From positions 106,717 through 170,716 of the IMG/VR virus record IMGVR_UViG_3300025876_000006: a stretch of DNA of 64,000 nt. One strand, given 5' to 3'. The position numbers and the translations under genes were made by a program. Below the pieces are notes generated by a model. That model saw only the letters and a list, made by a program, of their open reading frames with translations. It had not been told where the DNA came from and did no database searches. This document shows positions 23,412 through 26,669 of the stretch, piece by piece (the first letter of the stretch is position 1; each line of letters opens with the position of its first letter). Source of the DNA: a virus.

Positions 23412-23440
23412 TTTACAAATGTGCCTTTTTATGGTATAAT
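23412..23440 (+). promoter_or_regulatory. early promoter for small-gene operon
   Basis: TTTACA 23412-23417, TATAAT 23435-23440, spacer 17 nt. It should drive the run of tiny genes from 23487 through the tmRNA-like RNA at 25006 to the terminator at 25088. Confidence 0.8.
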
Positions 23441-24804: not shown

Positions 24805-25002
24805 ATGGAAAAGATAGAAGAGCTAAAACAAAAGTATATTTTTGACCGTTTGGAATGCCTTAAGTGGGATTCAAAATATTACAAATATAAAAACACAAAG
24901 CTATCATCAGAGCTTGAAAAGAGCGAAGCTAAGCTCGTTGATATTTTAAAAGAGATTCGTGAACTTGAAAGTCTCCGTGTTAGACCAAAGAAAAATAAAT
25001 AA
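24805..25002 (+). CDS. small coiled-coil early protein
   Basis: 65 aa, almost entirely helical, with a coiled-coil heptad region L-S-S-E-L-E-K-S-E-A-K-L and a basic C-terminus R-V-R-P-K-K-N-K. Its stop codon lies 3 nt before the tmRNA-like RNA, so both share a transcript. Confidence 0.55.
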   Translation: MEKIEELKQKYIFDRLECLKWDSKYYKYKNTKLSSELEKSEAKLVDILKEIRELESLRVRPKKNK

Positions 25003-25005
25003 AAC

Positions 25006-25074
25006 GGGGGTGTAAAAGAATTCGACGCTAGTTTCGGCTAACGGACCCGGGCGCGATACCCGGCACCTCCACCA
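25006..25074 (+). ncRNA. tmRNA-like RNA reduced to its tRNA-like domain (mini-tmRNA)
   Basis: 69 nt. The 5' arm GGGGGTG (25006-25012) pairs with CACCTCC (25064-25070), leaving A-CCA (25071-25074) encoded. The only wobble is G3.U70, the alanyl-tRNA synthetase identity pair of tRNA-Ala and tmRNA. AATTCGACG at 25019-25027 matches the hallmark tmRNA 5' segment (E. coli GATTCGACG) at the same distance from the acceptor. GGAC then a 5-bp T stem CCGGG/CCCGG with a 7-nt loop CGCGATA reproduces the tmRNA 3' end. Between them, only about 15 nt (a TAGT-TTCG-GCTA hairpin) replaces the hundreds of nt holding tag and pseudoknots. The T-loop lacks the usual TT at 54/55. A real tRNA-like RNA is well supported; its function is not. 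Confidence 0.8.
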
Positions 25075-25087
25075 TTTAAAATAAAAA

Positions 25088-25122
25088 ACCCGCTCTGAAT
25101 TAAACCAGGGCGGGTGTTTTTC
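25088..25122. terminator. bidirectional intrinsic terminator
   Basis: A 10-bp stem (ACCCGCTCTG, 25088-25097, with CAGGGCGGGT, 25106-25115, one G.U), an 8-nt loop, then GTTTTT. An A-tract on the left arm gives a U-tract on the other strand. It ends the mini-tmRNA operon and the convergent minus-strand cassette. Confidence 0.85.
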
Positions 25123-25138
25123 TAAATATATATATATC

Positions 25139-25492
25139 TTACTTAACGTTTGGCTCGTCTTTTTCTGTTGAGTATTCTGCTAAAAACTCTCTTAATTCAT
25201 TAATGTCATTTGCGTTTAAGCTCATAAATGTTCTTCGGGCCGCACCAGATGTGCGGCTTTCACTAACCTTTTCAATCTCTAAACATTTACGAGTGCCTAA
25301 CTTTGATTCCAATTCATCAGGGCCAATAAATTCAAGAAGCTTAAACGTGGAATTTGCATGTGTTCCTCCATCTTCCCATCCAGCCAATTCGGTTTTTTCA
25401 AGCAGAACCTTTGCTTCTTCTTTAATGGGTTTACCCTCAAGAATCGCCTTCGCGGCATCTTCAAGTTCTTTATTTTTGTTTGATAGATTCAT
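25139..25492 (-). CDS. MNLSN-leader internal protein D
   Basis: 117 aa. Residues 1-20 follow the family leader MNLSN(K/R)xxxLEDAA(K/R)xI with the I-L-E|G cleavage motif at 19/20. The remaining body carries F-I-G-P-D-E-L-E and L-N-A-N-D-I-N-E-L-R-E-F-L, which align with F-T-G-P-A-E-L and L-N-A-R-D-L-E-I-L-I-K in the protein at 26364, so these two are full paralogues. I infer a small protein packaged in the head and released on infection. It is last in the minus-strand cassette. Confidence 0.65.
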   Translation of the reverse strand: MNLSNKNKELEDAAKAILEGKPIKEEAKVLLEKTELAGWEDGGTHANSTFKLLEFIGPDELESKLGTRKCLEIEKVSESRTSGAARRTFMSLNANDINELREFLAEYSTEKDEPNVK

Positions 25493-25495
25493 ATA

Positions 25496-25834
25496 TTAAA
25501 TTTTTTCTATTGAAGTAATGTTTGGATAGTTTGGTTTATTACTTAGAACTACTTTAACTTTATCTCCTGCTTTATACTTCTTACTAAGCTTTGGATCAAA
25601 CCCAAATTCAGCTTTCATGCCGCTCTTGTTTTTCTTGTCATGACCTTTGAAAGTCATAACCCATGCTTTGCCAAACTTACCAGGCGATCTTTGAACTTGT
25701 GAAACGCTAGAAATTGTAAGATCCAATTCCTTTCCGAGATTCTTATTAAGAAAATCATCGTGAATAATTGCATTCTCACTCATAATTGCCTTTGCCGCTT
25801 CTTCAAGGCTGTTATTTCTATTTGATAAATTCAT
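25496..25834 (-). CDS. MNLSN-leader internal protein C
   Basis: 112 aa. It has the family leader at 1-20 (variant end I-M-S-E-N, without Gly after the Glu). The body is different from its neighbours: a compact beta domain with D-L-T-I-S-S-V, W-V-M-T-F-K-G-H, a K-A-G-D-K-V-K-V-V-L turn and a Tyr/Pro end. It resembles a small OB- or SH3-like barrel. A leader swapped onto an unrelated body supports a targeting role for the leader. Its start overlaps the stop of the upstream gene. Confidence 0.6.
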   Translation of the reverse strand: MNLSNRNNSLEEAAKAIMSENAIIHDDFLNKNLGKELDLTISSVSQVQRSPGKFGKAWVMTFKGHDKKNKSGMKAEFGFDPKLSKKYKAGDKVKVVLSNKPNYPNITSIEKI

Positions 25835-26367
25835 TATTTTCCAAAGTACTGGGTTTGTAGAATTTTACCAATTGCTTTGATAAGATCTTTACCGTCAGCA
25901 TTAGCTTCCCAGTCTTTAATAGCATCTTTGTATGTGGAATGGTTCATGGCATCTTTTAAATATTCAACATCATTAGCAAGACCTTCAAACATCTTTGCAG
26001 CTTGGGTTTTTACCGTGCCTTTTAATTTTGCTTCATCAAGTTCAATGCTTTCAACAATTTTACCTTTACTTAAATCTAAGATGGTTGGATAACCAATTTC
26101 CTTTGAAGTGCTTCTGTTAAACTCTGCTGCATGTTGCCTCGCTTTCTCAAGGGTTGGCGCAGTATGATAAATCTGACCTTTGTTATTAAATATATAGAAA
26201 TTGTTTTTTGATTTAGTTGTCTTGGCAGTATCAATCATTTTATCAAGACTTGCAGAGCCATTTCGAACTGCCTTCCAGTTTGATCCTCTAGTAGCACCGT
26301 AACCATATCCTTCAAGGATTCCCCTTGCAGCATCCTCTAATGCTTGACTTTTATTTGATAAGTTCAT
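25834..26367 (-). CDS. MNLSN-leader internal protein B
   Basis: 177 aa. Leader with I-L-E|G at 19/20, then a beta-rich region (F-Y-I-F-N-N-K-G-Q-I-Y-H), then a second possible cleavage site E-L-D-E|A at about 114-117, and a helical C-terminus. Prohead-protease action could yield two mature peptides. No homologue is recognised. The gene overlaps both neighbours (ATGA-type junctions), so the cassette is translated as a coupled unit. Confidence 0.6.
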   Translation of the reverse strand: MNLSNKSQALEDAARGILEGYGYGATRGSNWKAVRNGSASLDKMIDTAKTTKSKNNFYIFNNKGQIYHTAPTLEKARQHAAEFNRSTSKEIGYPTILDLSKGKIVESIELDEAKLKGTVKTQAAKMFEGLANDVEYLKDAMNHSTYKDAIKDWEANADGKDLIKAIGKILQTQYFGK

Positions 26368-26669
26368 TTTAAAGAAATCTTCTTTAGATTTTTAATAAGA
26401 ATTTCAAGATCACGCGCATTCAATTCAATATATTTTTTACCAATCGTGATTTGTACCATTTTACGATTTCCAATCTGACCATGCCCAAGCTCGGCGGGTC
26501 CAGTAAATTGTGTTAATTCGGCATATTCTTTACCACTTTTACCCGCGCTTGTCCAAGCTTTAATTTTAGTAGCTTCACTCAGCTCTTCGGTTTCAAGCTC
26601 CTCATAAGTTCCTTCAAGGATTCCCCTTGCAGCATCCTCTATCGTTTTACTTTTATTTGATAAGTTCAT
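26364..26669 (-). CDS. MNLSN-leader internal protein A
   Basis: 101 aa. Leader with I-L-E|G at 19/20 and a further E-L-S-E|A site near 30-33, so the mature protein may start around residue 33. The body is a small alpha/beta domain paralogous to the protein at 25139. The nucleotide sequence encoding the last part of the leader is almost identical to that of 25834-26367, pointing to recent duplication or gene conversion of the leader. Confidence 0.65.
   Translation of the reverse strand: MNLSNKSKTIEDAARGILEGTYEELETEELSEATKIKAWTSAGKSGKEYAELTQFTGPAELGHGQIGNRKMVQITIGKKYIELNARDLEILIKNLKKISLK

Follow-up and report, generated by a model that had tools for sequence, protein, structure and literature searches.

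Can the tRNA-like half of tmRNA stand in a phage genome as a gene of its own, and what might such an RNA do to the host? Trans-translation is near-universal in bacteria and is an antibiotic target, and natural inhibitors of it are, to our knowledge, hardly known. The question was raised by a 69-nt locus at positions 25006-25074 on the plus strand of the window, the whole 64,000-nt stretch of DNA analysed here. This stretch closes a virus record of 170,716 bases, which encodes a T4-type prohead protease and a DnaB-like helicase ~60% identical to cyanomyovirus homologues; the source is a marine T4-like phage. The locus is a gene for a tagless tmRNA made up of the tRNA-like domain (TLD) only, and its RNA reads GGGGGUG UAAAAGAA UUCGAC GCUAGUUUCGGCUAAC GGAC CCGGG CGCGAUA CCCGG CACCUCC ACCA. 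The features of the locus are as follows.

23412-23440 (+): sigma-70-type promoter match with TG, 11 of 12 consensus bases; a putative transcript start
24805-25002 (+): gene for a 65-aa protein with no family match (family search), its stop 3 nt before the RNA; replaced in the relative L037 (comparison)
25006-25074 (+): 69-nt TLD-only (tagless) tmRNA gene; Rfam RF00023, 46.2 bits, model positions 1-374; family covariation
25006-25012 (+): 5' strand of the acceptor stem, G3 at 25008; 7 of 7 pairs with 25064-25070
25013-25026 (+): D-like region and UUCGAC (RNA positions 16-21, numbered as in E. coli tmRNA)
25026-25043 (+): P2 hairpin with a UUCG loop (25033-25036), replacing the whole mRNA-like part; six pairs and one C x A mismatch
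25043-25046 (+): GGAC, its A equivalent to E. coli A334 (sequence; PMC8363625)
25047-25063 (+): T arm, 5-bp stem (5 of 5 pairs) and loop CGCGAUA; compensatory C-G to U-A change in L037
25064-25074 (+): 3' strand of the acceptor stem (U70 at 25068), discriminator A and encoded CCA
25088-25115 (+): intrinsic terminator, 10 pairs (7 of them G-C) and a T run

The window RNA matched the Rfam tmRNA model with an E value of 3.2e-17 over 501 bases, and the alignment reached both ends of the model while skipping ~308 of its positions. The gathering score of the model is 47 bits, which leaves the window RNA 0.8 bit short, and therefore nothing was reported at this locus by a default Rfam scan or by ARAGORN. 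An earlier note had described an acceptor stem with the alanine identity pair and an encoded CCA, UUCGAC at the same distance from the acceptor as in E. coli tmRNA, and a 3' end of GGAC plus T arm. All of these were borne out: the acceptor stem has 7 bp, G3.U70 (25008/25068), the discriminator A and CCA are all present, the spacing of UUCGAC is that of E. coli, and GGAC is followed by a 5-bp T stem. The contacts of SmpB in E. coli tmRNA are A15, U17, G19 and A334 (PMC8363625). The mini hairpin proposed in place of the mRNA-like part was also found, whereas its proposed length of 15 nt was not; the segment from TTCGAC to GGAC is only 16 nt and contains neither a tag reading frame nor pseudoknots.

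A full tmRNA was rejected because the window RNA has no resume codon and no tag reading frame with a stop. An ordinary tRNA was rejected because the sequence has no anticodon arm, and no match at this locus was given by ARAGORN or, at its cut-off, by the tRNA family; a permuted two-piece tmRNA was rejected because the 5' half precedes the 3' half, and its model (RF04321) gave just 24.4 bits for a partial match. With the tmRNA model matching end to end and the tRNA searches empty, the earlier assignment to a TLD-only tmRNA rather than an ordinary tRNA held, and membership of the window RNA in this class is near certain. The folding check went the other way, since the minimum-energy structure of the naked RNA (-25.6 kcal/mol) was not the tRNA-like fold (-22.1 kcal/mol). 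Hence, the structural claim rests on comparison and covariation.

In order to compare related RNAs, viral contigs were scanned with the pattern GGGG-N8-15-TTCGAC-N5-35-GGAC-N20-CTCCACCA. This natural form gave at least 120 matches, and 121 of the 125 viral contigs among the matches listed passed stem tests independent of the pattern (acceptor at least 6 of 7 pairs, T stem at least 4 of 5), so that the same compact form is indeed found in phage genomes, as the earlier note had proposed to look for. L018, L040, L043 and L102 failed these tests, as did about half of the bacterial pattern matches. Among the matches listed, the 121 viral and 14 genuine bacterial-genome copies correspond to 99 distinct RNAs of 64-85 nt. 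Since the acceptor pairs 1:72, 2:71 and 4:69 as well as TTCGAC, GGAC and CCA were set by the pattern, they were excluded from the conservation evidence. P2, about which the pattern says nothing, provided an independent test. The numbers of standard P2 pairs, counted outward from the pair beside C21-G38, were 98/99, 92/99, 95/99, 89/99 and 85/98, compared with maxima of 61, 60, 70, 62 and 56 in 500 shuffles; these counts were block-anchored and were taken as decisive. Covariance in related phages, on which the reading had beforehand been staked, was thus very strong. The elbow covaried as well: a D-loop GG occurred with U (34) or C (5) at T-loop position 55 and AG with G (27), while the combination of AG with U occurred in two cases only. 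The mutual information between D loop and T loop was 0.71, and no shuffle exceeded 0.42 (78 distinct combinations); shuffles ignore relatedness, but shared ancestry by itself hardly accounts for the variety of pair types seen at most of the variable positions. Judged by the covariation of P2, the T stem and the D and T loops, the TLD fold is conserved.

Two architectures were observed. In that of the window RNA, a short loop directly caps P2 (66 contigs, 38 distinct RNAs, a complete listing); in the other, P2 is interrupted by an internal loop rich in A and topped by a small apical hairpin, with inserts of ~25-34 nt. Longer forms of ~88-117 nt were also found, with 19 of 20 matches genuine. 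The tmRNA gathering score was exceeded in 25 of 31 related records, and no copy was found on plasmids when five representatives were searched. The permuted (acceptor-first) tmRNAs of S-CAM1, S-SSM7, S-CAM3, Sf-FS3, AG-345-P14, S-CRM01 and Tunturi_4 were set aside, and so were a Moorella phage match inside an integrase gene and a Pseudomonas phage match at attR, which contain the 3' part only and are att-type fragments. In the Tunturiibacter phage Tunturi_4 (L239:219-980), a 115-aa RF-1-domain protein of ArfB-like size lies directly before the permuted tmRNA, so that, as read from the sequence, two ribosome-rescue components are adjacent in one phage. ARAGORN called several mini-tmRNAs tRNA-Glu or tmRNAs with doubtful tags (L101:8486-8576, L020:2976-3318, L088:5905-6228), and further copies may therefore sit unrecognised in existing annotations. 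Standard annotation overlooks or misnames these RNAs, and the phage family is mostly unannotated.

Because the pattern itself required G3.U70, controls were run at pair 3:70. Changing U70 to C (G3-C70) gave no match in all viral contigs, and changing G3 to A (A3-U70) gave four matches there, all of which had no T stem and none of which was genuine. The matches to the natural form, at least 120, are therefore not a product of chance. A pattern with G3.U70 and U4-A69 gave one genuine copy of 66 nt. BLAST-derived copies in the Streptomyces phages GiJojo, LuckySocke, pSt2308 and BRock kept G3.U70 while 4:69 and other acceptor pairs varied, and all four scored above the Rfam cut-off. A fifth Streptomyces phage, Alone3, no longer has a matching T stem, and its UUCGAC motif is incomplete. 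Since G3.U70 is kept and genuine G3-C70 and A3-U70 forms were absent, alanine charging, as predicted from the identity pair, appears to be under selection. An SmpB sponge alone would not need alanine charging.

The setting of the window RNA agreed with the earlier description of a gene stop 3 nt upstream and a terminator just downstream. Promoter-like matches overall were not above chance expectation; with the 11/12 match upstream and the terminator downstream, transcription of the window RNA, which the earlier note had called very likely, is plausible. Eleven other contigs carry the identical 69 nt. In the more distant relative L037, the upstream gene is another one, and the RNA and terminator are kept; its RNA differs from the window RNA at three positions, namely one base of the P2 mismatch and the two of the compensatory T-stem change. 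Nearby, at 25139-26669 on the minus strand, adjacent small genes share a near-identical N-terminus (MNLSNKxxxLEDAAxxIL.G) and otherwise encode different proteins; this repeated leader is perhaps a targeting or processing signal.

In L013, L031, L048, L068, L083, L114 and L120, a tRNA gene is 1-14 nt away from the mini-tmRNA; in the cultured Streptomyces phages the copies stand inside tRNA arrays, and many copies abut a stop codon. Such positions are consistent with release of the RNA from longer transcripts through tRNA enzymes. Searches for SmpB turned up no gene in the virus record of the window or in 34 phage records, many of them fragments, and in 31 records the tmRNA model gave strong matches that were all short, none of them to a full tmRNA. 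As many of the phage records are fragmentary, this absence is not proof; taken as it stands, host partners must be used, and host AlaRS, EF-Tu and SmpB would serve the mini-tmRNA.

Several observations were made around bacterial and cyanobacterial copies. Victivallales/Lentisphaeria-type genomes contain mini-tmRNAs with unusual T-loops (L141:4393-4820, L142:2030-2368 and L154:502-889, the last on the minus strand). About 30 nt downstream of each lies a small ORF rich in glycine, whose N-terminus (MNVKCxKC...) resembles a zinc ribbon; in L142 this ORF is degenerate. Five mini matches and a full tmRNA are present in the genome of L141. In L142, the region directly downstream of the mini (L142:2562-7421) encodes a Cas13b-like protein of 1094 aa (PADLOC E value 6e-15) and Cas1 and contains 38-nt direct repeats, and in L154 a Csm3/Cas7-like 762-aa protein adjoins the mini; both are possibly mere co-location of defence genes. 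A Pseudanabaenaceae contig (L130:3249-5450) encodes, downstream of its mini, a VWA-domain protein together with a Tpt1/KptA RNA 2'-phosphotransferase, a setting suggestive of RNA repair. A VWA protein is near the minis of L141 too.

From these data, we infer transcription, processing, charging, SmpB binding and an effect of the mini-tmRNA in the following way. The phage transcript would be cut in a tRNA-like manner to release the mini-tmRNA, which host AlaRS would charge with alanine through G3.U70. Host SmpB and EF-Tu would bind the charged RNA, and it would enter ribosomes stalled on broken mRNAs and accept the nascent chain. Offering neither resume codon nor tag, it would compete with and divert the tagging trans-translation of the host during infection. 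An alanylated decoy that binds SmpB and EF-Tu and enters stalled ribosomes without a tag is the best explanation in our view, with a probability of about 0.6, and phages probably divert or block host ribosome rescue with it. The decoy reading, which the earlier note had offered as one possibility, agrees with the conserved alanine pair and with published work on the TLD-only RNA of mycobacteriophage DS6A; a DS6A-like RNA is reported to inhibit tmRNA strongly in E. coli (PMC4131195, PMC11915505), and TLD together with SmpB acts on ribosomes in vitro without a template (PMC3929946). According to PMC4131195, the inhibition does not require alanylation, whereas the alanine pair is conserved across the family; titration of SmpB alone therefore falls short as an explanation. 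Against the decoy stand the deviating minimum-energy fold of the naked window RNA and the chromosomal copies beside full tmRNA genes in bacteria, by which some copies do not serve a phage.

The conserved charging also keeps alive, beside inhibition, a productive rescue without a tag. Alanyl-mini-tmRNA and SmpB would take over the peptide, eject the broken mRNA and add at least one alanine before another factor releases the chain, and the phage would recycle ribosomes rather than block their rescue. We consider this rather unlikely: the selection on alanine identity, the polyalanine made in vitro by TLD and SmpB on ribosomes without a template (PMC3929946) and the retention of mitochondrial tagless tmRNAs together with SmpB (PMC11915505) speak for it, but the release step is not encoded, and the DS6A-type RNA has been reported to inhibit tmRNA. 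The broader version, in which a widespread tag-free trans-translation of phages gives nascent chains one or more untemplated alanines and replaces host tagging while the bacterial branch near defence genes uses the RNA otherwise, is similarly doubtful.

A role away from ribosome rescue, such as distracting an RNA-cleaving defence of the host or providing phage mRNA with a tRNA-like element for 3' processing and stability, seems improbable. Several copies do lie at stop codons or in tRNA arrays, and CRISPR-Cas genes are near some bacterial ones; however, a processing element needs neither G3.U70 nor the SmpB-contact positions, and no defence or neighbour gene is common to the phages. That the window RNA is a remnant without function, either an att fragment or a decayed tmRNA, can be given hardly any credence, although ssrA is a frequent integration site (PMC11915505) and the contig-end match L018, with its non-matching acceptor, resembles an att-type fragment. 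The window RNA has both halves, contiguous, compensatory change across the family is massive, and L037 keeps the RNA, with its compensatory T-stem change, beside a different upstream gene. By the covariation the remnant is already contradicted, and the earlier judgement that an att fragment is unlikely stands.

Among the closest known systems is the TLD-only tmRNA of DS6A (Mao et al. 2009, cited in PMC4131195 and PMC11915505), and the novelty of kind implied by the earlier note was overstated, since this phage example is already known. As described in the citing papers, the DS6A RNA is likewise phage-encoded, comprises little beyond the tmRNA TLD and inhibits endogenous tmRNA in E. coli; it differs in coming from a single mycobacteriophage, whereas the present RNAs form a large family, drawn mostly from environmental contigs, with covariation and elbow variants. 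The Thermus thermophilus TLD crystallised with SmpB (PDB 2CZJ, PMC3929946) consists of the 5' 25 nt, a UUCG loop and the 3' 34 nt and is almost the window RNA, but it was engineered, unlike the phage RNA, which occurs naturally and is under selection. The CDS-less tmRNAs of mitochondria and Mallomonadaceae plastids (the latter ~65 bp) also have no tag frame; unlike the phage RNA they are organellar, and the mitochondrial ones are mostly permuted (PMC11915505). Full-length or permuted tmRNAs of phages such as Bxz1, Melnitz and Synechococcus phage S-CRM01 contain a phage TLD too, often near tRNA genes, but carry the tag-coding part that the mini form lacks. A 2025 database has nine 'standard, no CDS' entries among 97,179 tmRNAs, and no description of a large phage family of TLD-only tmRNAs was found in the literature searched, most subscription journals lying outside its scope. 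New here are the family size, the covariation and the alanine-identity evidence, the kind itself being known from DS6A. As compact natural RNAs, mini-tmRNAs can be used for studying SmpB-dependent ribosome entry, and the copies in culturable phages, together with the family, open a direct way to ask if phages suppress the ribosome rescue of the host or circumvent it. Compared with the single phage oddity DS6A, these RNAs form a large and diverse family, present also in culturable Streptomyces phages, whose fold and alanine identity appear strongly selected.
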